Position numbers and translations under genes: made by a program. DNA of 32,470 bases. Source: a bacterium (lineage in GTDB: Bacteria > Sumerlaeota > Sumerlaeia > MVZB01). The stretch is from NCBI GenBank assembly GCA_021372575.1, contig JAJFUE010000043.1, forward strand, positions 1-32,470. Reading direction: 5' to 3'. The stretch's first letter is position 1. Each line of letters starts with the position of its first letter. Under the pieces are notes generated by a model. The model was given only the letters and a program-made list of their open reading frames with translations. It had not been told where the DNA came from and did no database searches. This document shows positions 12,445 through 32,470 of the stretch, in pieces.

Positions 12445-12535
12445 CACAAAAACCCGCCGGATCAGGATTGGGACTCAAGCAGTAAAATCCATGATTCGGC
12501 GGAAACAGTCAAGTCGATGAATGTGTTTCATTCAT

Positions 12536-12645: not shown

Positions 12646-15150
12646 TTACTGGATGCGAGCGATGGGCGGCGTGAACCACAGCTCCGAGCGCATGACCGAC
12701 GTCGATTCGCTTGCCCCGGTCTGCCAGCCGGTGGCGCGCACGAACGCCCCCGGCGCGACCATCGCGCTCGAACTTGCCAGCCGATAACCAACCCCCGCGA
12801 CCGGTTTGGCGTATCCGATCAGGGTCCAGTTCCGCCCGTCGCCCGACGTCTCGAACTTCGCCATCGAAAGCCACGGGAACGCCCCGCCGAGCTGCCACGT
12901 GATCACCCTCGCGTCCGCCGACACCTCGAGCTTTTGCGTCGCCAAATCCGAATTCGTCAGCCGCACCATCCCGTGCCGCTGCAACCCATTCACCGTCTTG
13001 AATTCGCCGCACGCCACCACCTTACCGTCGCTCTGGAGCAGAATATCGTGCGCGTAAGAGTCGAATTTGAGGCCTCCCGTATTGAACGATCCGTCGAGCG
13101 AGCCGTTCGCGTCGAACCGGATGACCGTCCCGCCGTAGCCGCCGATGAAATCAGAAAAGTTACCGATCACGAGGATCTTCCCGTTCGCCTGGACGGCGAT
13201 ATTGAACACGCTGCCCCGTTCGCCCATCGCGGTCGGATTGAAATTCATATCGAGCGTGCCGTCCTGGTTGATTCGCGCCAGCCCCCTGCGCGCCGCCCCG
13301 TTCACGTTCCTGAAACCCCCGCCGATTAAAATCCTGCCGTCCGGCTCGAGCGCGATCGCCGTCACGTATTCGTCGGTTTGGACCCACGTGAAGCTCGGGT
13401 CGGGCGTGCCGTTAGCATTCAGCCGCTCGAGCTGGAAGATGCGCCCGCCGCCCGTGACCGGATAGCTGCCGCTGATGAGGATCTTGCCGTCGGTCTGCAC
13501 GGCGAAGTTGATCGCAACGTCGTAGGGCGTCACGTGCCGGTCCGCGAACCCCATGTCGATCGACCCGTTCGGGTTGAGCTTCACAAGCCGGCTTCCCCTG
13601 CCGGGAACGCTCGTGCTCATGATGATTTGATTGTATGGCAGCAGCTTCGTCATCGTCGCAAGCGTTCCCGACGACTGGCTGTTGAACGACGTGTCCGGCC
13701 TGCTGTCGGGCAGCACGCGCCCGATGTAATTGGCCGGATACCCGTTGAGCTTCACGAAATTGCCGCCGATCAAAATTCTGCCATCCGCCTGCACGATGAC
13801 CGAGTCCAAACCCCGGTCAACGTCCGAGATGACGTCAAATTTCGGGTCGATCAGCCCGAACGCGTTCAGGCGCTTGACCGCGAGCCCGTCCGAAGCGCGT
13901 TCCTTGTAGAGCCGCACGCCTCCCGGCAAAATCCTCTCGTCGGCCTGCATCGCGATCGTGTAAATGCGGAAGCCCAGCTGGTCCCAGCCGGGGTTGTCGA
14001 GCACGTTGAATGTCGCGTCGAGCGCGCCGGCCGGATTCACCCGCGCCATGTGGTTGCGCGTCTTGCCCTGCACCTTCGTAAACTCGCCGCCCATCACAAT
14101 GCCGCCGTCGCCTTCGAGTCCCAGCGCCAGGACCGGCGCGGTGCAGCTCGTGTCGCCAAAGCCGGTGTCAAGCGTCCCGTTCAGGTTCAGGCGCGCCAGC
14201 CGGTTGCTTGCAATCCCGTTGACCTTCGTGAACGCGCCGCCGATCACGATCTTGCCGTCGGGCTGCTGCGCGAGCGCGGCGACATAGCTGTTCGGTCCCG
14301 AGCCGGTCCTGAAGTTCATGTCCGGCGTGCCGTCCGGCATGAGCCGCGCCACGCAATTGCGCGGCAGGCCGGCGAACTGCGTGAACCAGCCGCCGACGAG
14401 GATCTTGCCGTCGGGCTGGATCACGACCGAGCTCACGCCGCTGCTGGCGCCGGTGCCGGGGTTGAACGTCGGGTCGAGATGCCCGTTGGCGCCGAGCCGC
14501 GCGATCCTGTTGCGTCCGACCCCATCCATTGTCGTGAAGAACCCGCCCACGACGATCCTGCCGTCGTCCTGGATCGCGACGGCGTTCACGCCCGAGTTCG
14601 CGCCCGCGCCGGGATTGAACGCGAGGTCGAGCGAGCCGTCCGCATTGAGCCGCGCGATGCGGTTGCGCGCCACGCTGTTGACGCTCGTGAACGTTCCCCC
14701 GATCACGATCCGCCCGTCCCGCTGGACGGCGATTGAATTGACCCAGCCGTTCGTCGCCGCGTTGCGGAACGTGCTGTCGATCGCCCCGTTCGGCATCAGG
14801 CGCGCGATGTATTTTTTGGATACGTGGTTATACTCAGTGAACCGTCCGCCGATGATGATCTTGCCGTTGGACTGCACGGCAATCGCCAGCACCGAATCGT
14901 TCGCAGTGGCCCAGCCAAACGTGAAATCCGGTCTTCCGTCATTGTTCAGTTTAAAAATGCATGAATCACCATATCCGATGCAGACCGTCTTGAAATCGCC
15001 GCCGATCAGGATGCCGCCGCGCGCATCCACGGCGATCGCGCGCACGGTGTTGTCAACGTCGGGCTCGAACCCGTCGCGGGGCGACGGCATCGCCCACGCC
15101 AACGCGGCGATGCAGAACATCAATCCCGCGGAAAAGATTTGCCTTTTCAT
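12646..15150 (-). CDS. Secreted delta-60 repeat protein (copy 2)
   Basis: An 834-residue exported protein paralogous to the next gene downstream. The N-terminal signal peptide is MKRQIFSAGLMFCIAALAWA, with cleavage after AWA. About 13 recognisable delta-60 repeats follow (cores such as QPDGKILVGGWFTQF and QDDGRIVVGGFFT), plus one degenerate unit near residue 510 (NQIIMSTSV). The C-terminal ~100 residues match copy 1 (WQLGGAFPW, then DGRNWTLIG, then FVRATGWQTG). The ATG at 15150 places the signal peptide correctly. An in-frame TTG at 15216 would prepend 22 residues and is rejected. The function is unknown; surface adhesion or structural roles are only inferred from secretion and repeats. Confidence 0.92.
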   Translation of the reverse strand: MKRQIFSAGLMFCIAALAWAMPSPRDGFEPDVDNTVRAIAVDARGGILIGGDFKTVCIGYGDSCIFKLNNDGRPDFTFGWATANDSVLAIAVQSNGKIIIGGRFTEYNHVSKKYIARLMPNGAIDSTFRNAATNGWVNSIAVQRDGRIVIGGTFTSVNSVARNRIARLNADGSLDLAFNPGAGANSGVNAVAIQDDGRIVVGGFFTTMDGVGRNRIARLGANGHLDPTFNPGTGASSGVSSVVIQPDGKILVGGWFTQFAGLPRNCVARLMPDGTPDMNFRTGSGPNSYVAALAQQPDGKIVIGGAFTKVNGIASNRLARLNLNGTLDTGFGDTSCTAPVLALGLEGDGGIVMGGEFTKVQGKTRNHMARVNPAGALDATFNVLDNPGWDQLGFRIYTIAMQADERILPGGVRLYKERASDGLAVKRLNAFGLIDPKFDVISDVDRGLDSVIVQADGRILIGGNFVKLNGYPANYIGRVLPDSRPDTSFNSQSSGTLATMTKLLPYNQIIMSTSVPGRGSRLVKLNPNGSIDMGFADRHVTPYDVAINFAVQTDGKILISGSYPVTGGGRIFQLERLNANGTPDPSFTWVQTDEYVTAIALEPDGRILIGGGFRNVNGAARRGLARINQDGTLDMNFNPTAMGERGSVFNIAVQANGKILVIGNFSDFIGGYGGTVIRFDANGSLDGSFNTGGLKFDSYAHDILLQSDGKVVACGEFKTVNGLQRHGMVRLTNSDLATQKLEVSADARVITWQLGGAFPWLSMAKFETSGDGRNWTLIGYAKPVAGVGYRLASSSAMVAPGAFVRATGWQTGASESTSVMRSELWFTPPIARIQ

Positions 15151-15330
15151 GGGACCCACTCCGGGTTGGAATGAAAAAACTTGCCGGGATGAAGCGTCCG
15201 AGTTGAATAGGATCAACTTACCACAACCGCGCGCAGTTTAAAGCATAAACGGCATCCGGTTCGTGCCCGTGCCCTCTCGAAAACATGTGGTAAGTCGTCG
15301 TGCTCGTGCTCGTTATCGTAACCGAACCCC
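15151..15330. other. Gap between delta-60 copy 2 and ilvC with a hexamer repeat
   Basis: This short intergenic region holds five hexamer units at 15294-15323 (GTCGTC, GTGCTC, GTGCTC, GTTATC, GTAACC), the reverse complement of the GAGCAC/GATTAC type seen at 331-366. No gene is seen. The promoter of delta-60 copy 2 should lie here, but no clean -35/-10 pair was found. Confidence 0.6.
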
Positions 15331-16529: not shown

Positions 16530-17237
16530 TTATAGGCCCCAATAGTAATTTGACCGGAATATTCTCAATCCATTTTGTCCTGTCCAGGATCGTTCCTCCC
16601 ACATATTCTTTGATCTATCATCCGTTAGTTTAACTGACTCGTTCATAACATCGTACACTACTCCAGTGATCCAAGTCGAGTAACCATCATGTCTCAATGC
16701 GCAGAGCTTTGCGGCATAGTTTGCTGCTCGCCCGATCCAAACCAAATCGTTCGAGCCGCGGATACCAGTCCGTGCTACCAATAGCTTGCTTGTATCCACA
16801 CCCACGGAATGTCTAACAACAAAATCTCTGATCCGCTCCTTGTAGTAATTTTTAAGCGCAGGATTGATAATCTTGATCACCGCATGGTTTATAGCCAACG
16901 CCGATCGAACGGCGGATGTGTTCTTTGAATCACCGATGAAGACAGCCATGACACGATCGCCATCAAATGCTGTTATAACTCCGCCTTGGTTGCGTATAAT
17001 CCTGCAAGAGCAGTTCAAATAACACTTGTAGACCTCAGCGGCAAGCTGTGCGTTAAATGAGTTTACGAGATTCGTACTCTCCGCGAGGTCTGCATAGAGA
17101 CAGGTCGCTTCTAAGTTGACGCCCTTGTTTCCGAGTTGAATGTCTTCCGTCTCCGGAACGGATCTCCCATCACTCGTGGACCATTTCTCTTCGATAATCT
17201 TTGTGACTTCAGTAGTGAGATCATTGACTATTCCCAA
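16530..17237 (-). CDS. pycC: Class III nucleotide cyclase, Pycsar PycC type
   Basis: A 235-residue soluble class III cyclase domain with no membrane or sensor region. Metal-binding Asp50 lies in CLYADLAEST and Asp94 in AFDGDRVMAVF, followed by Arg95. Asn173 in GRAANYAAKL is the conserved ribose/transition-state position. In Pycsar such cyclases make cCMP or cUMP on phage infection to activate the partner effector. The call rests on the FDGDR motif, the compact size and the adjacent cyclic-nucleotide-binding TIR gene. The base made cannot be told by eye. No ATG is available: an in-frame stop lies at 17249-17247 and the first usable start is TTG at 17237, with GAGG of the preceding gene's end as ribosome-binding site. 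An ATT at 17240 is less likely. Its GC content and codon use look lower than neighbours. An ordinary cAMP-type cyclase is the alternative. Confidence 0.88.
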   Translation of the reverse strand: MGIVNDLTTEVTKIIEEKWSTSDGRSVPETEDIQLGNKGVNLEATCLYADLAESTNLVNSFNAQLAAEVYKCYLNCSCRIIRNQGGVITAFDGDRVMAVFIGDSKNTSAVRSALAINHAVIKIINPALKNYYKERIRDFVVRHSVGVDTSKLLVARTGIRGSNDLVWIGRAANYAAKLCALRHDGYSTWITGVVYDVMNESVKLTDDRSKNMWEERSWTGQNGLRIFRSNYYWGL

Positions 17238-17241
17238 AATG

Positions 17242-18174
17242 CTACCTCACCCCGAGCCTAGTTATATGATTGCTAAGGACGGTCACAACTGGGGCCGTTC
17301 TCGAATCCAATGTTGCTGCATCCCCATTTGAATCATATTCGATAGGATTCAGTCCCCATAGATCGGTTGGAATTTTTACTTCAATTCCTCGTGGCTTGGC
17401 AAAGAAAGTGCGCTCCCGGCCCAACACACCCAAAAAAAGCCCCAATTCAAATACACAATTATCTCGGGGCGCATCTTTTATGGTTTGGCGCGACTCAGTA
17501 AGATCGTCCGGAGTTAGAATTACCAGGGCGATATCATACTGACCGGCCTTTTGGAGCAAATCCTCAACAGTTGTCCTGCTTGGTGTAAACGCATTGTTGC
17601 TCCAAACAGTCGTTATAAAATTCGAATGGGAGAGACCGAGTTGAATGGCGTTCGCAACTGGCAGACCCTCGACAGACGAAGCAATGAACAGGAAAGGTTG
17701 CTCATTAGGAGGGTTATGGAATCCCGCCCGCTGTCGGAGTCTTTGCACTACTTCCGCCGCAAAACGCCGCCATAAAGCGGGTCTTGCATTCGCCGTGGCT
17801 ATGACGACATCTTCTGAAATACGAAGCGCAATGGTGGGTTCAAGGGAAATCACGGATGCACTTCTTGGTCCGCACGGCTCTATCAGAGCCATTTCTCCGA
17901 CGTGTTGTTTGGGTCCTCTGATTGCTACTGCCCGGCCATTCACCCGAATTTCAACCCGCCCACAAAGCAATATAAATAAATGAGAGTCGTAATTACCCTG
18001 CTTAATGAGTTCTTTTCCGCCGGGAGAGAACTCTTCTATTGTGCCTGCTTTCTGGAAGGCGGATGCAATTTCTTCATCCCCGCCGATTAGGGGTGATTCC
18101 ATCAGGATATCTCGCACGACCCGTGCGCCACATTCGCCTTCGAATCTATGTCTTGGGCCACTTACAGCGAACAT
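17242..18174 (-). CDS. pycTIR: Cyclic-nucleotide-binding TIR effector (PycTIR type)
   Basis: A 310-residue cytoplasmic protein of two domains. Residues about 33-150 are a CRP-like cyclic-nucleotide-binding domain: GNYDSHLFILLCGRVEIRVN, then a phosphate-binding cassette HVGEMALIEP with Gly93, Glu94 and the RSASV arginine (Arg104). Residues about 158-285 match the TIR domain of CAP12/Pycsar effectors: FLFIASSVEG, then YDIALVILTPDD, then RDNCVFELGLFLGVLGRERTF, with Glu243 the expected catalytic glutamate. In characterised systems cCMP or cUMP binding drives assembly and NAD depletion, stopping phage growth. The stop lies 4 nt before the cyclase start, so the two are one operon. GGAGA precedes the ATG at 18174. 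Composition is markedly less GC-rich than flanking genes, suggesting horizontal acquisition. Confidence 0.92.
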   Translation of the reverse strand: MFAVSGPRHRFEGECGARVVRDILMESPLIGGDEEIASAFQKAGTIEEFSPGGKELIKQGNYDSHLFILLCGRVEIRVNGRAVAIRGPKQHVGEMALIEPCGPRSASVISLEPTIALRISEDVVIATANARPALWRRFAAEVVQRLRQRAGFHNPPNEQPFLFIASSVEGLPVANAIQLGLSHSNFITTVWSNNAFTPSRTTVEDLLQKAGQYDIALVILTPDDLTESRQTIKDAPRDNCVFELGLFLGVLGRERTFFAKPRGIEVKIPTDLWGLNPIEYDSNGDAATLDSRTAPVVTVLSNHITRLGVR

Positions 18175-18319: not shown

Positions 18320-18778
18320 TCATGATTCAACCCGTGTCCGTTTATTCGCCGTTTTCTGACGCACCAGGGCCGATTTGAGATAAGTTTGCTTCCTTTGGCC
18401 CGCGCGCTTCGAATTCACCTTCGGCGATTGTAAATTCTCCACGACCACTTTTTCGTTCTTCGAGATCAACCGCAGTGCAATTTGCTTCTTGAGCGCCACC
18501 GCCAGCTTGGCGATGGTCTCCATCTTGAAATTGACCTGTTCGTTCAGGATTTTGCTCACATATGCGCGGGAAACTCCCATCGCGCGCGCGAGATCCGATT
18601 GGGACAATCCGCCGGCTTCAAGCGCCCGCTGCACCTGATCGATCACGTCGTATTGCATCCCAAGTAGCGCGAATTCCCAGTCGTTTTCGAGCGACGGCAA
18701 TTCCTGGCTGTTTTTTTCGTAATCCGCGTCCATGCGGCGAATCGTCTTTTTTAGTTCGGATCCGTTCTTCTCTTTCAT
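18320..18778 (-). CDS. higA: XRE-family antitoxin (HigA type)
   Basis: A 152-residue protein with a helix-turn-helix core at about residues 45-100: AGGLSQSDLARAMGVSRAYV followed by SKILNEQVNFKMETIAKLAVAL, the classic XRE pattern. A long basic C-terminal tail (SKRAGQRKQ to NKRTRVES) follows, which is unusual for HigA proteins and may add nucleic-acid contacts or be disordered. It lies 15 bp downstream of the toxin gene, in the toxin-first order characteristic of higBA. It should neutralise the toxin and repress the promoter upstream of it. AAAGGA lies 7 nt before the ATG. Confidence 0.87.
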   Translation of the reverse strand: MKEKNGSELKKTIRRMDADYEKNSQELPSLENDWEFALLGMQYDVIDQVQRALEAGGLSQSDLARAMGVSRAYVSKILNEQVNFKMETIAKLAVALKKQIALRLISKNEKVVVENLQSPKVNSKRAGQRKQTYLKSALVRQKTANKRTRVES

Positions 18779-22572: not shown

Positions 22573-23727
22573 ATGTCCAGTTCGCTTCATATTCTCGTGA
22601 CCGGTGGGGCCGGGTTTATTGGCTCTTTTATTGTCGATGCGCTTGTGGAAAAGGGGCATCGCGTGCGGGTGTTCGATTGCCTCGACCCGCAGGTCCATGG
22701 CGAGCGCGACGGCAAAGCGCCGGAGTATTTGAGCCGCGACGCCGAGTTCGTTCTGGGCGACGTGCGCGATGTCGAGGCGCTCGACAAGGCCATGGACGGG
22801 ATCGACGTCGTGTTTCACGAGGCGGCGGCCGTCGGCGTCGCGCAGTCGATGTATGCCATCCGCGCCTACACCGAGGCCAATACGATGGGCACGGCGAACC
22901 TGCTCGAGCTGATCGTGAACAAGCACCGCGACCATGTGCGGCGGATGATCGTGGCCAGCTCGATGTCGATCTACGGCGAGGGGAGATACGTCGATCCGGC
23001 GACGAACCAGTTCGTCGTGCCGGCGCAGCGGACGACGCGGCAGCTCGATTCGGGCGATTGGGAGCCGAGGATTCAGGGCACTGACAGGCCGGCGCAGCCG
23101 GCGCCGTGCGACGAGATGAAGCCGCTGGAGCCGACGTCGATCTACGCGATCAACAAGCGCGACCAGGAAGAGATGTTCCTGTCGGTCGGGCGCGCGTATG
23201 GGATTCCGGCCGTGGCGCTGCGGTATTTCAACGTGTATGGGTCGCGCCAGGCGCTGAGCAATCCCTACACGGGCGTCGGGGCGATCTTCAGCTCGTGCTA
23301 CCTGAACGGCCGCGCGCCGCGGGTGTTTGAAGACGGCCTGCAGACGCGCGATTTCATTCATGTGACCGACATCGCACGGGCGAACGTGCTGGCTTTGGAG
23401 CGCAGCGAGGCCGATTACGAGGCGATCAACGTCGGGACGGGCCGGCCGACGAGCGTGCTGGGGCTGGCCAAGATGCTGCTGGCGAAATTGCATCCGGACC
23501 GGGTCGAGGACCCCGAGCTGCAGCCGAAGATCGTGGGCCGCTTCCGCGCGGGCGACATCCGGCACTGCTACGGGGACATCTCGAAGGCGCGGCGGCTGAT
23601 GGGGTTCGAGCCGGCGGTGAGGCTGGAAGACGGGATCGCGGAGCTGATCGAATGGGTGCGCAAGCAGGAAGCCAAGGACCTGAGCGACCAGGCCCTCAAG
23701 GAACTCAGCCAGCGGCGGCTGGTGTGA
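22573..23727 (+). CDS. NAD-dependent epimerase, dTDP-L-rhamnose 4-epimerase-like
   Basis: A 384-residue extended short-chain dehydrogenase. The NAD motif TGGAGFIGSF is at residues 10-19, catalytic Ser130/Ser132 in ASSMSIYGEG, and Tyr191 and Lys195 in SIYAINKRDQ. RYFNVYGSRQALSNPYTGV and RFRAGDIRHCYGDISKARR follow. The overall sequence pattern, with VFHEAAAVGVAQSMY and an insert before the YxxxK motif (TTRQLDSGDWEPR), matches enzymes annotated as dTDP-L-rhamnose 4-epimerase, which convert dTDP-L-rhamnose to dTDP-6-deoxy-L-talose. UDP-glucose-type 4-epimerases are the alternative. The ATG at 22573 has GGAG 7 nt upstream and is preferred to the GTG at 22558. It closes the glycan cassette. Confidence 0.88.
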   Translation: MSSSLHILVTGGAGFIGSFIVDALVEKGHRVRVFDCLDPQVHGERDGKAPEYLSRDAEFVLGDVRDVEALDKAMDGIDVVFHEAAAVGVAQSMYAIRAYTEANTMGTANLLELIVNKHRDHVRRMIVASSMSIYGEGRYVDPATNQFVVPAQRTTRQLDSGDWEPRIQGTDRPAQPAPCDEMKPLEPTSIYAINKRDQEEMFLSVGRAYGIPAVALRYFNVYGSRQALSNPYTGVGAIFSSCYLNGRAPRVFEDGLQTRDFIHVTDIARANVLALERSEADYEAINVGTGRPTSVLGLAKMLLAKLHPDRVEDPELQPKIVGRFRAGDIRHCYGDISKARRLMGFEPAVRLEDGIAELIEWVRKQEAKDLSDQALKELSQRRLV

Positions 23728-23733
23728 GAAAGA

Positions 23734-23781
23734 ATGATGAATGATGAATGATGAAAGATGAAAGAATGAGCAATGAGAAAT
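23734..23781 (+). repeat. Heptamer tandem repeat after the epimerase gene
   Basis: Units of AATGATG (three in a row) and then AAAGATG/AAAGAATG give a 7-bp periodic tract that decays toward 23781. A related tract (GATGAAA type) occurs at 25419-25446 between the first two paralogues. Confidence 0.75.
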
Positions 23782-23796
23782 GAAGAACCGGGTGAA

Positions 23797-23848: not shown

Positions 23849-23899
23849 CTTTTTGCCCCCGGAGGACACTTATGTGCAGAAGGCTCCGGGGGTAAAAAG
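23849..23899 (+). promoter_or_regulatory. Stem-loop directly before the first paralogue, enclosing a mini-ORF
   Basis: CTTTTTGCCCCCGGAG (23849-23864) pairs with CTCCGGGGGTAAAAAG (23884-23899) over 16 bp with one G-U pair and a 19-nt loop. The T run is on the left arm and the A run on the right, the reverse of a terminator. The GTG of the first paralogue begins 3 nt after the stem. GGAGG (23861-23865) and ATG (23872-23874) inside the structure open a seven-codon frame, MCRRLRG, that stops at 23893-23895. The structure could control translation of the array. Confidence 0.55.
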
Positions 23900-23901
23900 G
23901 C

Positions 23902-25422
23902 GTGGGGTCCATACGGCGCAAAATTTTATTCGGGGTGCTGTGCGTCGCGCTGGCGGTGATGCTGGTGCTGACGGTCTTTTATTCATACATCATTTATACC
24001 CCGACCGGGCTCGAGAAAGTCGCCAAACCGATGGTGGCGGCGCGGGCGCGTGTCGTTGCGAACGCCGCATCGATCGGGCGGGGTGCGGCTTCGGGCGAAA
24101 AGCCGGGCGCGGCGGAGAAGCCGAATGGCAAGTGGGTGTTGGATCTTGGCGCGAGCATCAACTACTTCGCCGGGTTCAATTGGGGTTCACCGTCGCATTA
24201 TTTTTATAACCAGTATTCTGTGAACCGCGAGCTTCAGCCTGAGACTTATCCATGCGAGCGTGTGCCGGCCGCGGGCGGGTCGCTGTGGGCGGCGCTCGAC
24301 GAGAAATCGAAATCGCAGCTGACGCATTCCGCGCACTATTTCATGTATCGCAGGCAGACGCGCGCGAAGCTTGCGTTAGCCGACGCGGCGGTGATCGCCG
24401 ACGAACTGGACAAGCTCGATCTGTTCCTGCTCACGTCGTCCCGCGCGATGCCGCGCGCCGACCAGGTTGAGTATCTGAACATCAGCCCCGCGCTCTACAT
24501 CAAGACGATGATGACGATCGAGCGCGCGTGCGTGCGCGGCCAGCAGCAGAAGGCGCTGGCGCTGCTCGACGGTTTTCTCGATACGCTGCGGTTCCTGCAA
24601 TACGGTTACGTCCACGACGGGAACATCACGGTTCCGGCGGCGAGCCCGCACGAAAAGGTTTTCTGGCGCGGGCTGGGGCTGATCCGCGGACTTCCGCCGG
24701 AGTGGCGCGACCACGCGCGCGCGGCGCTCGGCAAAATGGCGGCGATGAACGCGCAGCCGGCCGACTCGTGGCCTTACACCGCGAGCATGTGGCGCGAACG
24801 CATCACGGCCAAACTGGATAACAGTCATTACGCGAATCAAAACTTCTGGCATTTCTTCGACACCGGCGAGCGGATCGTGAACCGGGCGCTGCGGCCGGTC
24901 GCGAACCGGCAGGTGGACAGCATGTGCGCAGCGCTCGGGCGCGGCGACACGGCGCAGTTTTACCGGGAATTCCGGTCGCTCACAGGGACGCTCGGCCTGA
25001 TGAACATTTCGTGGACAAGGTTCGAGTGGCGTCAGTTTGAAAACTTCAACAACAGGGCTGCGCAGACGGCGGCGAACGCGCGGGCTTGCCTGGATTTGAT
25101 TAATCAGTCCGACGATCGCAGGACGACCGAAACGATTGCGGTCGAGCGGTTCGGGCGGTTTGAGGACACCAACTATATAGAAATCGGCCCGGCGCTCAAT
25201 CGGGAACGAAAACTCGGCAGGAATGTCAGCACGCCTGCGGAGATCGATGAATTCATTAAGAAGAACAAGCGTGAGGATTGGCGGCGGTATGTGAAATGGT
25301 ACGGGCCGACGACGATGAAGATTGATTGGGTGGCGCGCGGAAAAGAGGTGGTGGTCACGTTCCCGCCGGAGGATGTAGAGTTCGAGGAAGAACTGAGGCG
25401 GGTGCTGACTGGGAAGCGATGA
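23902..25422 (+). CDS. Paralogue array protein 1: membrane-anchored protein of unknown family
   Basis: A 506-residue protein of an unrecognised family with four neighbours of the same kind. Residues ~7-30 form a hydrophobic anchor (KILFGVLCVALAVMLVLTVF), then YTPTGLEKV, the family PTG motif, and an Ala/Gly-rich linker. A GGSLWAAL segment follows, then a helical core with TIERACVRGQQQKALALLDG, LPPEWRDHARAAL and FWHFFDTGERIVNRAL. The C-terminus has VERFGRFEDTN, TPAEIDEFIKKNKREDWRRY, then VKWYGPTTMKIDW. The bulk is probably periplasmic. The start is GTG at 23902, after a 16-bp stem-loop. The core resembles TPR-like helical repeats, but no known function is assigned. Confidence 0.85.
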   Translation: MGSIRRKILFGVLCVALAVMLVLTVFYSYIIYTPTGLEKVAKPMVAARARVVANAASIGRGAASGEKPGAAEKPNGKWVLDLGASINYFAGFNWGSPSHYFYNQYSVNRELQPETYPCERVPAAGGSLWAALDEKSKSQLTHSAHYFMYRRQTRAKLALADAAVIADELDKLDLFLLTSSRAMPRADQVEYLNISPALYIKTMMTIERACVRGQQQKALALLDGFLDTLRFLQYGYVHDGNITVPAASPHEKVFWRGLGLIRGLPPEWRDHARAALGKMAAMNAQPADSWPYTASMWRERITAKLDNSHYANQNFWHFFDTGERIVNRALRPVANRQVDSMCAALGRGDTAQFYREFRSLTGTLGLMNISWTRFEWRQFENFNNRAAQTAANARACLDLINQSDDRRTTETIAVERFGRFEDTNYIEIGPALNRERKLGRNVSTPAEIDEFIKKNKREDWRRYVKWYGPTTMKIDWVARGKEVVVTFPPEDVEFEEELRRVLTGKR

Positions 25423-25446
25423 AAGATGAAACATGAAAGATGGGAT
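25419..25446 (+). repeat. Heptamer tract between paralogues 1 and 2
   Basis: About four 7-bp units of GATGAAA type (GATGAAA, GATGAAA, CATGAAA, GATGGGA) span the stop codon of paralogue 1 and most of the 44-bp gap. Confidence 0.7.
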
Positions 25447-25466
25447 GACATGACGGGACGGCTTTA

Positions 25467-27059
25467 GTGGAATCGAAGGGGCGCAAAATACGGTTTGGGG
25501 TGCTGTGCGTCGTGCTGGCGATGGTGCTGGTGCTAGTGCTCGTGGATTCGTATTGCGCGTTCACGCCATCGGGTTATGAGGAGGTCGAAAAACCGATGGC
25601 GGACGCGCGGGAGCGGATCGGGAAGGCAATCTCGAAGCCGGCTGCGGCCAAGCCGGCCGATGGCGCCGCGCGTCAGACAACCTCGCCGAACGTTGCCAAG
25701 GCCGGCGGTAACGAATCGGCGGCGCGGCAAAACTGGAGCCGTGAGCTGGTCAATTTCGAGATCGACGGCGCCGCTGGATGGGCCACGCAGTTTTTTTATC
25801 AGGGTTACGAGAACCGCATGATCACCGTGCCGGTTTATTTACTCAAGGAACTGGGCGTTGCGGCTTTGGCGGAAGGATCGAAGCTCTGGCCGGAGCTCAC
25901 GGAAAAGCAGCGCGATGGGATGATGAGATATGTGATCATTGCCTTCGTCTGGAAAAAACAGCGGCGGATGGTCAGCCTCTCCGATGAGAAGGCGGGCCGG
26001 ATCGCCCGGGAACTGGACCGGCTGGAGGAATTTCTGCTCAGGAAAGACCGGGGCATGCCGAGCATGGGTTATGCGACCTATATCAGCAACGCTTTTTCCA
26101 TCAAGACGAGGCTGGTGATGGAACGCGCGTGCCTGAACGGCGATCCGCAGAAGGCGCTCGAGTTGTTCGATGGCTATCTCGACGTGGTCAGGTTCGTCTT
26201 CTTGGCCAACCTCTATGACGGACCAGCGGACGTTTATTCATATGCACCGACGACGTTCTTGTCGCGGAATCTTGATGACATTCCGAATTTCCCGGGCGAG
26301 TGGCGCGAACACACGCGCAAGGCGCTGGCGGAGATCGCGGGATTCAAGGTGAACGAGGCCGACGCGTTGCTGTTTACGGCGAATGCATGGCGCGAACGCT
26401 GCATCGAAATCCTGAACAGCAACTCGAACAGGAAGGGCAATATCTGGCATTACTTTGCGGGCGGGAGGCTCGAGAGCGTCACGGGGAAGGCGTTTTATCC
26501 GATCGTGATGCGCCAGGTCGATGAGGCGGCGGTCGCGCTCAGCAAGGGCGATGACGCGGGTTATCGCGCGCATATGAATGCCGCCAGGCCGGTGCTGGGC
26601 GTGATGAATATCCAATCGCTCCCCTACATCAGCAACACGCAGACGGTGGAGAACAAATCGCGGCAATTGCAGGAGTATGCCGCGACGGTCTCGGCGCAGA
26701 TCAAGCCGCACGACCGCGTTACGTCCGAGACGATTGAGATCGAGCGGTTCGGCAACCTTACAAACATCGGCACCCTGCATGGCGTTGACCTGTATCAAGC
26801 GGTCCAGAATTTCCACGCCAGACACGGGCACGGGCCGACGACGCCGGAGGAAATCGACGCTTTCATCAAGGAGAACGGCCGCGAGGAGTGGCGCCAATAC
26901 GTGGAGTGGTATGGACCGGGCAAGGTGACGCTGTCGTCATTCAAGCATAACGGCGAGGTGATGGTCACGTTGCAGGTCGAGGACAGGGAATTTGACGAGA
27001 TGGTAAGGAAAGTGCTGCTGACGAAAGCCGCGAAGAACTCAAGTCAGGCGCAAAGATGA
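25467..27059 (+). CDS. Paralogue array protein 2: membrane-anchored protein of unknown family
   Basis: A 530-residue member of the same family. The anchor is GVLCVVLAMVLVLVLVDSYC, followed by FTPSGYEEVEKP and a linker. The helical core contains VMERACLNGDPQKALELFDG, FPGEWREHTRKALAEI, and a site reading NIWHYFAGGRLESVTGKAFY with the RQVDEAAV and KGDDAG turn after it. The C-terminus has EIERFGNLTN, GHGPTTPEEIDAFIKENG, EEWRQYVEWYGPGKVTLSS and a charged tail. The start is GTG at 25467, the equivalent of the GTG in paralogue 1, with only GGGACGG as a possible ribosome-binding site. It overlaps the next gene by 4 bp (ATGA), so they are translationally coupled. Confidence 0.86.
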   Translation: MESKGRKIRFGVLCVVLAMVLVLVLVDSYCAFTPSGYEEVEKPMADARERIGKAISKPAAAKPADGAARQTTSPNVAKAGGNESAARQNWSRELVNFEIDGAAGWATQFFYQGYENRMITVPVYLLKELGVAALAEGSKLWPELTEKQRDGMMRYVIIAFVWKKQRRMVSLSDEKAGRIARELDRLEEFLLRKDRGMPSMGYATYISNAFSIKTRLVMERACLNGDPQKALELFDGYLDVVRFVFLANLYDGPADVYSYAPTTFLSRNLDDIPNFPGEWREHTRKALAEIAGFKVNEADALLFTANAWRERCIEILNSNSNRKGNIWHYFAGGRLESVTGKAFYPIVMRQVDEAAVALSKGDDAGYRAHMNAARPVLGVMNIQSLPYISNTQTVENKSRQLQEYAATVSAQIKPHDRVTSETIEIERFGNLTNIGTLHGVDLYQAVQNFHARHGHGPTTPEEIDAFIKENGREEWRQYVEWYGPGKVTLSSFKHNGEVMVTLQVEDREFDEMVRKVLLTKAAKNSSQAQR

Positions 27060-28684
27060 GAAGTAAGAAACGGACCATCCTTGTCGTGCTGGCCGTCGCC
27101 GCCGCGATGCTGCTGTTGCTGGCGGGGTGGTATGCGCATCTTGTCTCGAGGCCCACCGGTTACGAGAAGCTCAGGCCATCGTTCGCCGCGGCCGTCGACC
27201 GGATCGGGAAAGACGCGGCATCCGGAGCGCATCCAATACAGCCTGTGTCGAATCTTTCTTTACCGGAAAACAAAGCCGCGCAATCTCCGGCCACGCCGCC
27301 CCGCGAATTCTTCACGGAGCTCATGCCGTTTCTATCAACCCCCGACGTGGCGATGAATACGTTCGTGACCGGCTATCTCAATCGGAGAGACCGGAACAGC
27401 GTCAGCGTGGAGTGCGATCAACTGCCAAAACCGGGCGGGTCGCTGTGGGCCGTGCTGAAACAGGAAATGCGCGAGGTGGTCATCGATGCCGGCCGGACTT
27501 GCATCGAGAACAGCGAAACGATCACGGCGGGCGCAAACGCCATCAACGAGGAGCTCGACCGCCTGGATGAGTTTTTGCTCAGGCCCGGCAAGAAAGTGCC
27601 CGCGCTCGCGCCGCGCTATGACTACAACGTGGAATCGTTTTACCGGAAAGTCCTCATCGCGATCGAGCGGGCGTGTTTGCGAGGCGACCCGGCAAAGGCG
27701 CTCAAGCTTCTGGATGGTTTTTTCGAAACCGTGCGCGTCTGCAATGTTGTTTATGTTTCCGATGTGAGCGCTTATAGGAGGCCGGTGGTTCCGGATAGCT
27801 GGTTCTGGCGCGAACTCGAGCGCATGCCGAACCTGCCGCCGGAGTGGCGCGATCGCGCGTGCAAGAGCCTCGAGGCGATCCAGAACACAACCATCGCGCG
27901 CGCCGACGCGCTGCTCTATAGCGCGCGGGCGTGGCACGACAGCTCCGTCGCGCAGATCGACGGCGAGAACCTGGCGATGAAGAACACGTGGCATTATTTT
28001 GGCAGCGGGCGGCTGGAAACGGCGGCGCGCAAGGCATTTTACCCGATCGCAATCCGGCAGATCGAAAGCATGACCGTCTCGTTCGGCAACGGAAATCAGG
28101 CCGAAATGACGGAGCAATCCAAGCGGCTCAGACAGATCTTGACGCTGATGAACATGAGCGGCTACAGCGGCTTTGAGGCCAAGGGTATGTTCCGGGATCT
28201 GGACTCGCGGCCGCTGGAATTGAAGCAACTGCTCAATCGCCCAATCGCGATGATGAAAGGCTGGGTCAAGCTCCTGCCGCAAAACGAGGCCCCCTTTCAG
28301 GACACGCCCGACGAGATCACGATCGAGCGGTTCGGCGCGTTCAAGATCGAACCTGGCCGCGAACTCACGGTGGCTTACTTCAACTACAGCCAGACTCATC
28401 GGCGCGGGCCATCGTCGCCCGACGAGATCGAGAGTTTCATCAAGGAGCACGGCCACGGCGACGACTGGCGGCAGAAGGTGATCTGGTACAAGCCGGGCAA
28501 GGTCAGGATCGGCTGGCGCAGGATTCGTAGCGGCGCGCCTCCGCCCGGTCAAATCAAGTATGTTGTTGCGGTTCAAGTCTCCCGGACCGAAGACAGCGTC
28601 GAGGATCGATACAAGGCGGTGTTGCTGGGTAAATTCGACGGCAAGCTGAAGGACAAAAAAGACGCAAAGGACCAGAAAAACTAA
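27056..28684 (+). CDS. Paralogue array protein 3: membrane-anchored protein of unknown family
   Basis: A 542-residue member of the family. The anchor is TILVVLAVAAAMLLLLAGWY, then SRPTGYEKLRPSFAAAVDRI. A CDQLPKPGGSLWAVL segment parallels CERVPAAGGSLWAAL of protein 1. The core carries AIERACLRGDPAKALKLLDG, LPPEWRDRACKSLEAI, NTWHYFGSGRLETAARKAFY and LTLMNMSGYSG. The C-terminus has ERFGAFKIE, GPSSPDEIESFIKEHGHGDD, then WRQKVIWYKPGKVRIGW and a lysine-rich tail ending DKKDAKDQKN. The ATG at 27056 overlaps the previous stop. The tail codons resemble the ACGCAAAAG-type intergenic repeats, so the last residues may be repeat-derived. Confidence 0.86.
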   Translation: MRSKKRTILVVLAVAAAMLLLLAGWYAHLVSRPTGYEKLRPSFAAAVDRIGKDAASGAHPIQPVSNLSLPENKAAQSPATPPREFFTELMPFLSTPDVAMNTFVTGYLNRRDRNSVSVECDQLPKPGGSLWAVLKQEMREVVIDAGRTCIENSETITAGANAINEELDRLDEFLLRPGKKVPALAPRYDYNVESFYRKVLIAIERACLRGDPAKALKLLDGFFETVRVCNVVYVSDVSAYRRPVVPDSWFWRELERMPNLPPEWRDRACKSLEAIQNTTIARADALLYSARAWHDSSVAQIDGENLAMKNTWHYFGSGRLETAARKAFYPIAIRQIESMTVSFGNGNQAEMTEQSKRLRQILTLMNMSGYSGFEAKGMFRDLDSRPLELKQLLNRPIAMMKGWVKLLPQNEAPFQDTPDEITIERFGAFKIEPGRELTVAYFNYSQTHRRGPSSPDEIESFIKEHGHGDDWRQKVIWYKPGKVRIGWRRIRSGAPPPGQIKYVVAVQVSRTEDSVEDRYKAVLLGKFDGKLKDKKDAKDQKN

Positions 28685-30312
28685 TGAAGAATAGAAGGCG
28701 AACAGTTCTTGTGCTTCTAACATGCGGCGCGGCCATGATGCTGCTGATGGCGATGGCGTATGCGTGGCTGGCGTTTGCGCCGACGGGGTATGCGGACGTG
28801 GAGAAATCGGCCGCGTCCGCGCGGGAGCGACTGGCGAAGAACTATGCGCGCAGGATCGACTCCGCGACATCAGGCACGAAGACGCAGGGCGGCGCAGGCC
28901 GGCTCGGCTATATGGACGTCGTCTTCAAGGACATGACGGGCGAAATCGTCGGCCGCAAATCGAATCCTGACCCGGCAAAGCTCGAGGACAAAAGGGTCGA
29001 GGAATACTTCGAGGCGCTGCGGCGGTTTGCGCTGAGCGACTTTCCTGTGTCGGGGTGGTTCGCGTGCGAGAACCCACCGCCGGCGGGCAGCTCGATCATG
29101 CCGCTGATCACGAGCGAAACGCGCGAGCGGATGGTGCTCAGCGTTCGGAGTCGCGTTGAGCAGCTAAGATCTCTGCCGGCCCGCCCGCAGCTCGATGCGA
29201 ATACCGCGGCGGCGATCAACGCTTACCTCGACCGGCTCGAGGACTTTTTGCTGAGCGGCAACTGGGACGTGCCGCGCACGGTGACGGTGAAATACGGCAA
29301 GTTCAGCAAAACGTACGGGCTCAAGGTGATCTTTGCCATCGAGCGCGCGTGCCTGCGGGGCGATCCCGAACGGGCGGTTAAAATCCTCGAGGCTTACCTC
29401 GAGACGCTGCGCATCTGGCAATACATTTATTTACAGACCGACCAGACCAGTTGGCTGGAATTGCGACCGGAATGGGAGCCGCTGTTTTGGTATAGCCTCG
29501 CGGAGGTGGATAACTTTCCGCGGGCGGCGTGGGATCGCGCGCGGGCGGGGCTCGAGCGCATGCGCATGAGCGAGGCCGACCAGAACGATGCGCGCGTGCT
29601 GGGCGCGATCGCGTGGCGCAACGATTTCGAGAAGGAGTTCAAGAAAGAGATCGGCCGGCCAAGCCAGAACATGTGGCACTTCATGATGGGCGGAAGTCTC
29701 GAATCGGCGGTCAACACGGCGCTGGCGCCTGTTGCGAATCGCTACGTGGACGAGACCTGCATGTCGATCAAGCACGGTGACCCTAATGAATTCGACCGGA
29801 AGATCACGGCGTTGAACCACACGCTGACGCTGATGAACGTGGCGGACAGGCATGTGCTGCTTTACGGGACCAACCGGAATATGGCCGTCAACTACCGGTT
29901 AGAGTCGGTGGACCGGTATGCGGACAGCTTGGCCGCGACATTCGAGTGCGCACGGAAGCACGTGCCGCTCGACCGGATCAGGGTCGAGCGGTTCGGGTCG
30001 TTCATGACGAAATGGAGGAAAGGCGACAACGAACTCGCGCTCGCGATCATGAAGTTCGAGAAGGAACACAAGCACTGGCCGTCGTCGCCGGAGGAGATCG
30101 ACAGTTTCATCAACGCCTCCGGCCACGGCGACGACTGGCGCGCGAAGGTGACGTGGTTCGAGCCGACGGACTTCATGATCATGTGGTATCCGGCGGAACG
30201 GCGCACGAGGCCGAACGATCCGGTCGTGAAGGGGATACGGCTCAGCCTGATGAGATATGAGCCGGTGATGGACGACGGGATCAAGTCGATGCTGAAGCAA
30301 ACGGGACAATAA
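28684..30312 (+). CDS. Paralogue array protein 4: membrane-anchored protein of unknown family
   Basis: A 542-residue member of the family. The anchor is TVLVLLTCGAAMMLLMAMAY followed by AWLAFAPTGYADVEKSAASA. A divergent CENPPPAGSSIMPLI replaces the GGSLW segment. The core has AIERACLRGDPERAVKILEA, FPRAAWDRARAGLERM, NMWHFMMGGSLESAVNTALA and LTLMNVADRH. The C-terminus has VERFGSFMTK, HWPSSPEEIDSFINASGHGD, then DWRAKVTWFEPTDFMIMW. The ATG shares one base with the preceding TAA (TAATG), so it is translationally coupled. The linker region is the most divergent part. An MFEKEHKHWPSS-like run before the C-terminal motif is shared in position with HARHGHGPTT of protein 2. Confidence 0.86.
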   Translation: MKNRRRTVLVLLTCGAAMMLLMAMAYAWLAFAPTGYADVEKSAASARERLAKNYARRIDSATSGTKTQGGAGRLGYMDVVFKDMTGEIVGRKSNPDPAKLEDKRVEEYFEALRRFALSDFPVSGWFACENPPPAGSSIMPLITSETRERMVLSVRSRVEQLRSLPARPQLDANTAAAINAYLDRLEDFLLSGNWDVPRTVTVKYGKFSKTYGLKVIFAIERACLRGDPERAVKILEAYLETLRIWQYIYLQTDQTSWLELRPEWEPLFWYSLAEVDNFPRAAWDRARAGLERMRMSEADQNDARVLGAIAWRNDFEKEFKKEIGRPSQNMWHFMMGGSLESAVNTALAPVANRYVDETCMSIKHGDPNEFDRKITALNHTLTLMNVADRHVLLYGTNRNMAVNYRLESVDRYADSLAATFECARKHVPLDRIRVERFGSFMTKWRKGDNELALAIMKFEKEHKHWPSSPEEIDSFINASGHGDDWRAKVTWFEPTDFMIMWYPAERRTRPNDPVVKGIRLSLMRYEPVMDDGIKSMLKQTGQ

Positions 30313-30314
30313 AA

Positions 30315-32087
30315 ATGGCTACAAAAAAACGGGCGGCTCTGGTGGGATTAGCGGTCATCATCGCGGTGATGCTCGTGCTGGCGATGGGGTATGCGTGGCT
30401 GGCGCACGCGCCGACCGGGTATGCGGGTTTTGAAAAGGGAGCTGCGGAGGCGCAGAAGCGCGTGAGCGAAAAGGTGAAGCCGGCACCGAGGCCGGCCGAC
30501 GTGCGGGCGCGCGTTTCCGAAGCACCGATGCGTTACGCGATCCTGCCGAACGGAAGACCCGGCCCCGCGCACCGCGCGAATTTTTTCGAGGAGATCGAAT
30601 CTTACAACAGCTACGAGGAGCAGGCAAACATTACGTATATGCTGACGGCTGACAACAAGCCGATTTCTCAAGCCATGAAACTGGGTTGGTCGGGCATCGT
30701 GTATTGCCCGTTCTTCTTGCCGGAAAAGATGCGGCCGGCGGACGGCAAGCAGTTTTGGGACGGCCTCGATGCGGCGTCGCAGGTGAAGGGCGAAATGCTG
30801 CGATATTTTCAGTCTTCGTTCCGCGAACGAAACGAGCCGACCGCCGCGACCGACGCACAGAAGATGATGTTCTATGTTTACCTGGATAATCTGGAGGGTT
30901 TCCTGCTTCGGCCGCGGTGGGACATTCCGGAGACGAGCAGCACGCTGCATACCGGGGGGCGTTCGTTTCATCGGCTTGCGATGCTCGCCATCGCGCGCGC
31001 GAGCCTCAAGGGCGACCAGAAGCTGGCGACGGACTTGCTCGGCCGCTATCTCGACGCGGTGCGCGTCTTGCACGTGCACGACGAGCAGGGCGCGTTCACG
31101 ATGGACAACGTCAGGCAGGTGTTTTTCGGGATGGCGGAGCTGCCGGATCTGCCCGATGAGGCATGGGAGCAAGCGCGGCGCGCGCTCGAGTCGATGCGGC
31201 TGAGCGACGCGGAAAAAATGGACCTGTTGCGCGTGCGCGCGGCACGGTTTCACAAGATGATCGAGCAACAACTGGAGCATATCGACGGCGTTCCGAACAC
31301 GTGGCATTACGTGTTCGGCGGGACAGTCGAGTCGGGCGCGAACCGGCTGCTCAAGCCGATCGTGCTGCGCGAGGCCGAGAAGATGGCGCTCGATATCAGC
31401 CGCGGCGACGTCGCCGAAGCGGCGCGGCACCAGCTGAAATGGGCCGGGATGACGATGTGGTTGAACTCGACGGAAGGTCGCGATGTCGGCAAATACGGCA
31501 TCATGCAGATCAGCCTGATCGAGAATCTCAACGCGGAGGTGGATCGAGCGCTGCTGTATCTGCAAATCGCGCGCGCACGGCGGGCCAAGAAAGAAATGCC
31601 GGCGGTGACGACGCAGGGCGCGGAACATCTCGAGATGTTCAAGATGGACCGGTTCGGCGTGTTCACGATCTCGTCTTACGGCGGGCCGGGGAATCCGGGC
31701 TACGACCAGAAAAAGCCGCTGATGGACGCGATCAGGAAATTTCAGGCGACGGGAAAAGTCGCAACGCGGCCCGAGGATATCGAGGCCGTGATCAAGGCCG
31801 CCGGGCCGGGCGACTGGGCGAAATACGTCGTGTGGGTGGAACCGAAAACGGTTTACCTGATCTGGGGCATGCGGCGCATGCAGTCGAGCGACATCTGGTA
31901 TTTCGCGAGTCTTCGCGACTGGAAAGCGTCGGTGGAATGGGTCAACGCGGTCGAGGTATATGCGGTCGTGATCGATGGGCCGATTTTGAGCGAGTGGATG
32001 AAAGGCGTCTTGAAAGAAACGCGCGCAAGCAATCCGACTGAAACGATCCCGCGATGGGTCGAAAGAGGCGAGCGGTTGGCGTTGTGA
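30315..32087 (+). CDS. Paralogue array protein 5: membrane-anchored protein of unknown family
   Basis: The longest and most divergent member, 590 residues. The anchor is ALVGLAVIIAVMLVLAMGYA then WLAHAPTGYAGFEKGAAEA. A FFLPEKMRPADGKQFWDGLD segment stands in for GGSLW. The core has AIARASLKGDQKLATDLLGR, LPDEAWEQARRALESMRLS, NTWHYVFGGTVESGANRLLK and MWLNSTEGRD. The C-terminus has FKMDRFGVFTIS, TRPEDIEAVIKAAGPGD, then WAKYVVWVEPKTVYLIWGMR, followed by about 60 extra residues absent from the others. It starts with ATG two bases after the stop of protein 4. It is the last gene before the right-end repeat element. No terminator was recognised after it. Confidence 0.85.
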   Translation: MATKKRAALVGLAVIIAVMLVLAMGYAWLAHAPTGYAGFEKGAAEAQKRVSEKVKPAPRPADVRARVSEAPMRYAILPNGRPGPAHRANFFEEIESYNSYEEQANITYMLTADNKPISQAMKLGWSGIVYCPFFLPEKMRPADGKQFWDGLDAASQVKGEMLRYFQSSFRERNEPTAATDAQKMMFYVYLDNLEGFLLRPRWDIPETSSTLHTGGRSFHRLAMLAIARASLKGDQKLATDLLGRYLDAVRVLHVHDEQGAFTMDNVRQVFFGMAELPDLPDEAWEQARRALESMRLSDAEKMDLLRVRAARFHKMIEQQLEHIDGVPNTWHYVFGGTVESGANRLLKPIVLREAEKMALDISRGDVAEAARHQLKWAGMTMWLNSTEGRDVGKYGIMQISLIENLNAEVDRALLYLQIARARRAKKEMPAVTTQGAEHLEMFKMDRFGVFTISSYGGPGNPGYDQKKPLMDAIRKFQATGKVATRPEDIEAVIKAAGPGDWAKYVVWVEPKTVYLIWGMRRMQSSDIWYFASLRDWKASVEWVNAVEVYAVVIDGPILSEWMKGVLKETRASNPTETIPRWVERGERLAL

Positions 32088-32217: not shown

Positions 32218-32430
32218 GCCCAGCCCCGGCAGGGGCGATACAAGTTAGCCCAGCGCGTCAGCGCTGGGACAGCGGTTCCATCAGTCGTACCGAGCCCCGG
32301 CAGGAGCGGCACAACGGAGCGATACAAAACTGTGTCGCCCCTGCCGGGGCTCGGAATGTTCATGGACACGCTACCCAGGGTTCCGCTTCGCTCCACCCTG
32401 GGCTAACTTGTATCGCCCCTGCCGGGGCTC
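32218..32430. repeat. Composite palindromic repeat element with a perfect 32-bp inverted repeat
   Basis: Bases 32222-32253 are the exact reverse complement of 32398-32429 (32 bp, beginning AGCCCCGGCAGGGGCG and ending CTGCCGGGGCT), enclosing 144 bp. Nested inside are a second inverted repeat of 19 bp with one mismatch (32290-32308 with 32336-32354, CCGAGCCCCGGCAGG type) and two smaller hairpins: CCCAGCGC/GCGCTGGG (32249-32268) and CCCAGGG/CCCTGGG (32374-32402). No transposase is present. It looks like a non-autonomous or REP-like dispersed element, and may continue past the window. Confidence 0.8.
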
Positions 32431-32470
32431 GGGTCACGGCTGAATTCGCCGAGCAAGAAACAGCCGGACG

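Follow-up and report, generated by a model that had tools for sequence, protein, structure and literature searches.

Five tandem paralogues with an N-terminal membrane anchor in a Sumerlaeota genome: an indirect link to an unnamed superfamily with a GspG-like module

The described proteins closest to the locus reported here are the major pseudopilin GspG of type II secretion, the sensor peptidases of BlaR1/MecR1 type (M56) and the ECF sigma factors. Sigma factors bearing C-terminal extensions, a TPR domain among them, are known (PMC8103513). The present locus is an array of five tandem genes, and its likeness to these systems is seen indirectly, through an unnamed superfamily whose helical core and GspG-like module occur also in fusions with M56 and ECF sigma domains. 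We know of no functional data on the superfamily members identified in this analysis.

The array and its surroundings

The window, i.e. the whole stretch of 32,470 nucleotides that was analysed, is contig C213 of an assembly of 4.63 Mb in 214 contigs from an uncultured bacterium of Candidatus Sumerlaeota. The sequence-only reading of this DNA had described five tandem open reading frames, and their coordinates and lengths were reproduced, all on the + strand:

23849..23899, + strand: hairpin, 16 bp; MFE -38.7 kcal/mol, z -5.0; ends 2 nt ahead of the GTG of copy 1
23902..25422, + strand: copy 1, 506 aa; GTG start, backed by homology with copy 2 (VxSxxRKIxFGVLCV)
25467..27059, + strand: copy 2, 530 aa
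27056..28684, + strand: copy 3, 542 aa; AlphaFold2 model meaf404678f3d, mean pLDDT 75.4, pTM 0.73
28684..30312, + strand: copy 4, 542 aa; the window copy nearest to the homologues outside the window (c6 6e-18, G028 3e-9)
30315..32087, + strand: copy 5, 590 aa; the most divergent

The five genes encode mutually homologous sister proteins, and their similarity is not a matter of chance; the E-values of an all-against-all phmmer comparison range from 2.7e-87 (copies 1 and 2) to about 1e-24 (copies 1 and 5). The spacing between copies 1 and 2 is 44 bp. The overlaps of 4 bp (27056–27059) and 1 bp (28684) and the following 2-bp gap are present as described, so that copies 2–5 are arranged as in one transcription unit, which agrees with the earlier view that the copies are probably made together. 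The contig ends 383 bp past the array, and five is the number of copies seen.

The hairpin ahead of copy 1 includes GGAGG (23861–23865) and a 7-codon frame ATGTGCAGAAGGCTCCGGGGGTAA (23872–23895). It is a candidate control element, possibly a leader peptide or an attenuator, with a putative link to the array. Near the contig end the window carries an Acido-Lenti-1 RNA (RF01687) at 32222–32268 (- strand, 51.2 bits, E 6.5e-9), which sits among repeated GCCCCGGCAGGGGCG palindromes clustered at 32219–32432. Elsewhere in the window a complete Pycsar anti-phage pair is found at 16530–18171 (- strand), formed by the PycC cyclase (16530–17237, PADLOC E 2.5e-97) and the TIR effector (17242–18171, PADLOC E 8e-96), with an HTH protein adjoining at 18320–18778. 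Two tandem DUF5122 beta-propeller proteins with internal repeats of 150–153 bp are encoded at 9871–12447 and 12646–15216 (- strand).

Identity to copy 1 falls along the array from 39% in copy 2 to 33% in copy 3, 29% in copy 4 and 26% in copy 5. In-register DNA repeats of 60–79% identity run across the array (repeats D8–D13) and support tandem duplication. The old duplication proposed earlier is borne out by the tree, in which divergence is ordered: copies 1 and 2 are joined first (98/96) and then copy 3 (99/99), while copies 4 and 5 are less resolved. A sixth host copy (c6, see below) falls outside the array copies (90/92, an open fork), and the homologue from genome G016 is on a long branch. 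The gene order fits a history of tandem duplications that took place step by step. Between copies dN is 0.65–0.95 and dS about 1.0–1.4; dS is thus near saturation, which makes the apparent dN/dS of about 0.6–0.9 unreliable as a measure of selection. Simple (GATGAAT/GATGAAA)n repeats (D14) are located on both sides of copy 1, at 23721–23788 and 25403–25445, and may be a scar of the duplication that separated copies 1 and 2.

Protein anatomy, homologues and the superfamily

The common architecture described for the five proteins was confirmed (basic N-terminus, one TM helix, PTG motif, variable linker, helical core and C-terminal module), and all the motifs quoted for it are present in the translations. 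The claim of a single hydrophobic anchor also holds: by hydropathy each protein has a single hydrophobic segment, at its N-terminus, and the rest of the chain has none. Copy 3, for which an AlphaFold2 model was built from seven sequences, may be divided as follows:

27056..27160, + strand: residues 1–35, basic N-terminus, TM helix and PTG break
27308..28270, + strand: residues 85–405, all-helical core with the ERACLRGDPxKAL hairpin
28283..28630, + strand: residues 410–525, C-terminal α/β module

In the model the TM helix (residues 4–31) is followed by the PTG break, a helix (36–55), a low-confidence linker, the helices of the core (85–405) and the α/β module (415–523). The model of the homologue from genome G028 is poorer (pLDDT 56.8, pTM 0.59). 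An N-terminal anchor is shown for all five proteins, and a helical core and a module are predicted by AlphaFold2. The N-terminus being basic, the positive-inside rule would place most of each protein outside the cytoplasm.

Searches of Pfam, NCBIfam, PHROGs and PDB sequences gave no family for any of the five copies, and PHROGs gave none for c6 and the G028 homologue either. PADLOC, applied to copies 3 and 4, found no match to known anti-phage defence proteins. Foldseek comparison of the copy 3 model with PDB and BFVD gave no match at E<=0.001, the matches obtained being unspecific (E>=0.05, TM about 0.1). A TPR search of the window copies gave nothing at E<=1; among superfamily members weak TPR matches, below the cut-off, appeared in L072 and L059 only (0.0014) and fell on the core hairpin. 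The T2SSG profile matched neither the full family proteins nor the isolated modules, and the translations of the copies have no prepilin motif G|FxxxE at the N-terminus. None of these libraries has an entry for the family, which as such is new, in agreement with the earlier statement that it was unrecognised.

Homologues are rare within the class. Apart from the array, the host genome carries one further copy, the sixth, which stands alone on contig C183 (c6, 634 aa; L012:7122-9026). Scoring of all candidates in the 39 class genomes, host included, gave homologues in 3 of the other 38 (G028, G035 and G016); many of these genomes are incomplete and the absences are soft. Weak matches in two further genomes, G024 and G027, were dropped since by our reading they are polyphosphate-kinase-like frames. 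Among 346 sampled genomes outside the phylum, with up to three candidates scored per genome, there were no matches at E<=1e-3, and scans of genome_contigs, viral_contigs and plasmids with the window sequences gave no match. In phmmer, c6 is related to copies 4 and 5 (6e-18 and 9e-17), the G028 homologue to copy 4 (3e-9) and that of G016 to c6 (1e-7).

G028 (Candidatus Sumerlaeota isolate SJ135) has one copy adjoining gyrB. In G035 (Candidatus Sumerlaeota isolate SJ802) at least two copies are cut by contig ends, one of them near gyrB; the two contig ends are near-identical in sequence and then diverge. The single copy of G016 is broken by a contig end and adjoins an ECF-sigma-like frame and a zf-HC2/FecR gene. 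Copy number is thus not conserved in related genomes (6, at least 2, 1 and at least 1 in the four genomes), and of conserved neighbours, also looked for as support, there remains gyrB beside the G028 and G035 copies, the neighbours otherwise differing between genomes.

The C-termini of c6 and of the three outside homologues read roughly AxxxYxxxxGxxPxSxxxLvPxYL. A degenerate DNA pattern for PxSxxxLVPxYLP matched G016 alone among 118 genomes, so this route does not reach the superfamily. A T2SSG search of the host genome led to a protein on contig C192 (942 aa) with an M56 domain of BlaR1 type, a helical core and a GspG-like end. Its relatives were found in 46 of 291 sampled genomes, 12 of which are outside the phylum. 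A six-member profile of core and module matched 133 of 386 genomes, including 40 of 40 in the phylum (Sumerlaeota); many of these matches are to the module alone, and true pseudopilins will be among them. The superfamily C-terminus is GspG-like (PF08334 2.3e-8, TIGR01710 1e-8), and some members are fused to M56 (4e-32, 2e-33) and to an ECF sigma factor (2e-31). The latter fusion, from Sumerlaeota (L070:1492-3561, - strand), consists of the ECF sigma factor, a probable TM segment assigned by our reading of the sequence, the helical core and the module. In L058, L059, L062 and L063 at least two successive GspG-like stretches apparently precede the helical core. On host contig C156 a FecR/DUF3352-like protein of 973 aa (L042:2758-5679, - strand), with a GspG-like C-terminus by reading, lies downstream of a sigma-like frame.

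Comparison by hhalign of a 15-member superfamily profile with c6 and the G028, G035 and G016 homologues gave a score of 49.1 (E 2.5e-5, probability 75%) over 226 columns covering core and module, against control maxima of 16.0 (reversed), 21.5 (column-shuffled) and 29.5 (block-shuffled). A second, six-member superfamily profile, which overlaps with the first, gave E 4.6e-5 over 99 columns. The five window copies by themselves did not match the superfamily profile, with a score of 16.3 equal to that of the reversed control; their membership is therefore transitive, via the four homologues. Adding them to the four weakens the match: the nine sequences together scored 35.6 versus a block-shuffled maximum of 33.0. 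Through these homologues the copy 3 module can be aligned to the GspG-like module of the superfamily, with the DPF and GPDxxD motifs missing. The motifs PxDPF and YSxGPDxxD, present in most superfamily members, are lacking in the five copies as well as in c6 and the homologues of the other genomes, which places the family as a divergent branch rather than a typical member. The five copies would then belong to this branch by an indirectly shown, transitive link. Of the earlier claim that the family has no recognised kin, the part concerning characterised relatives stands, but through its less derived homologues the family is tied to a large superfamily without a name; it is probably a derived offshoot of a kind of protein that already exists but is unnamed, and none of its relatives is characterised.

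Possible explanations of the array

The explanation we lean towards, and hold tentatively, is that the array encodes bitopic envelope proteins of the superfamily, tandemly expanded and diversified as stand-alone extracytoplasmic binding or scaffold modules or as partners of sensors. A lineage-specific tandem expansion would have given rise to five proteins, in each of which a single N-terminal helix would be the inner-membrane anchor and most of the chain would lie beyond the cytoplasm. The helical, perhaps TPR-like core would probably bind protein partners and would be followed by a degenerate GspG-like α/β module; in the superfamily, core and module probably form the portion that lies outside the cytoplasm in M56 peptidases of BlaR1 type and in an ECF sigma factor. 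The copies may be produced together and their specificity may have diversified. The M56 and ECF sigma fusions, along with the neighbours in G016 and the C156 protein, suggest a testable role in extracytoplasmic sensing or protein binding. Against this explanation stand the missing superfamily match of the five copies by themselves, the missing module motifs, the lack of a cytoplasmic signalling domain in the window copies and the lack of a regulatory gene beside the array. Since the copies have no such domain, they would act on their own as modules for binding or scaffolding.

The five paralogues might instead be specialised, non-interchangeable subunits of one periplasmic hetero-oligomer. The overlap or abutment of copies 2–5, the intactness of all five frames despite their divergence and the conservation of core motifs alongside variable linkers would fit such an assembly, as would the G035 copies, which are probably also adjacent and broken at contig ends inside near-identical sequence. 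However, copy number and composition vary, neighbours differ, and the lone G028 copy shows that family members can do without a set of five. The unequal copy number between genomes suggests that such a complex, should it exist, is not fixed across the family, and we regard this explanation as doubtful. Its more far-reaching form, an undescribed multi-subunit periplasmic apparatus of diversified helical paralogues with a pseudopilin-like cap and without a characterised counterpart, is improbable. A role as accessory parts of a machine for type II secretion, or of one resembling a type IV pilus, with the module as a working pseudopilin tip, is suggested by the match of the superfamily C-terminus to T2SSG/GspG and by genuine GspG-type genes in the host; yet the N-terminus is without the prepilin peptidase motif, no family member matches T2SSG, no secretion genes adjoin any copy and the GPDxxD motif is missing, which makes this very improbable.

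An independent novel fold, likened to the superfamily by a chance resemblance of helical proteins and a short amphipathic motif, would account for the failure of Foldseek in PDB and BFVD at E<=0.001, for the window copies being unmatched by themselves, for an hhalign probability of only 75% and for a nine-member mixed profile barely above its block shuffles. It is unlikely in view of the alignment of the four outside homologues, where hairpin, long helices and module keep their order over 226 columns and the score is far over that of the reversed and shuffled controls; block shuffles with local composition kept reach 29.5 at most, and the match was reproduced with the second, overlapping profile. 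A largely neutral, transient amplification of genes without distinct functions would agree with the scattered occurrence (3 of the other 38 genomes of the class), the high dN with its apparent, unreliable dN/dS (dS being near saturation) and the simple repeats flanking copy 1. That five frames stay intact and keep conserved motifs at about 26–39% identity leaves it scarcely credible.

The array offers a way into a large family of envelope proteins that has neither a name nor an assigned function and that occurs in all the Sumerlaeota genomes analysed as well as in other phyla. The array is in addition a natural set of diverged paralogues, suitable for asking if such modules co-assemble.

Comparison with known systems

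The resemblance to GspG (PF08334, TIGR01710) concerns the module and is seen via matches of the superfamily profile. In contrast to GspG, the window copies have neither the prepilin signal nor a direct profile match, and their module closes a mostly helical chain of 500–590 residues. The likeness to ECF sigma factors with C-terminal extensions and to FecR/zf-HC2 anti-sigma-like proteins lies in the L070 fusion and in the G016 neighbours, whereas the window array has no sigma or anti-sigma gene alongside. As for the M56 sensor peptidases of BlaR1/MecR1 type, the core and module of L057 and L059 are placed after the M56 domain and occupy the place of the BlaR1 C-terminal sensor domain; the window copies are without a peptidase domain.

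A further comparison is with the superfamily itself (L057 of the host contig C192, L066, L071 and L072; alignment A11). The window copies differ from it in the absence of DPF and YSxGPDxxD and in having their own ERFGxF beta hairpin ahead of the module and PTG after the anchor. Family and superfamily are alike in the helical core with its G-x(4)-A hairpin, in the C-terminal module opening with Axxx(Y/F)xxxxGxxPxxLxxLxPxYL and, in stand-alone members, in the N-terminal TM-like segment.
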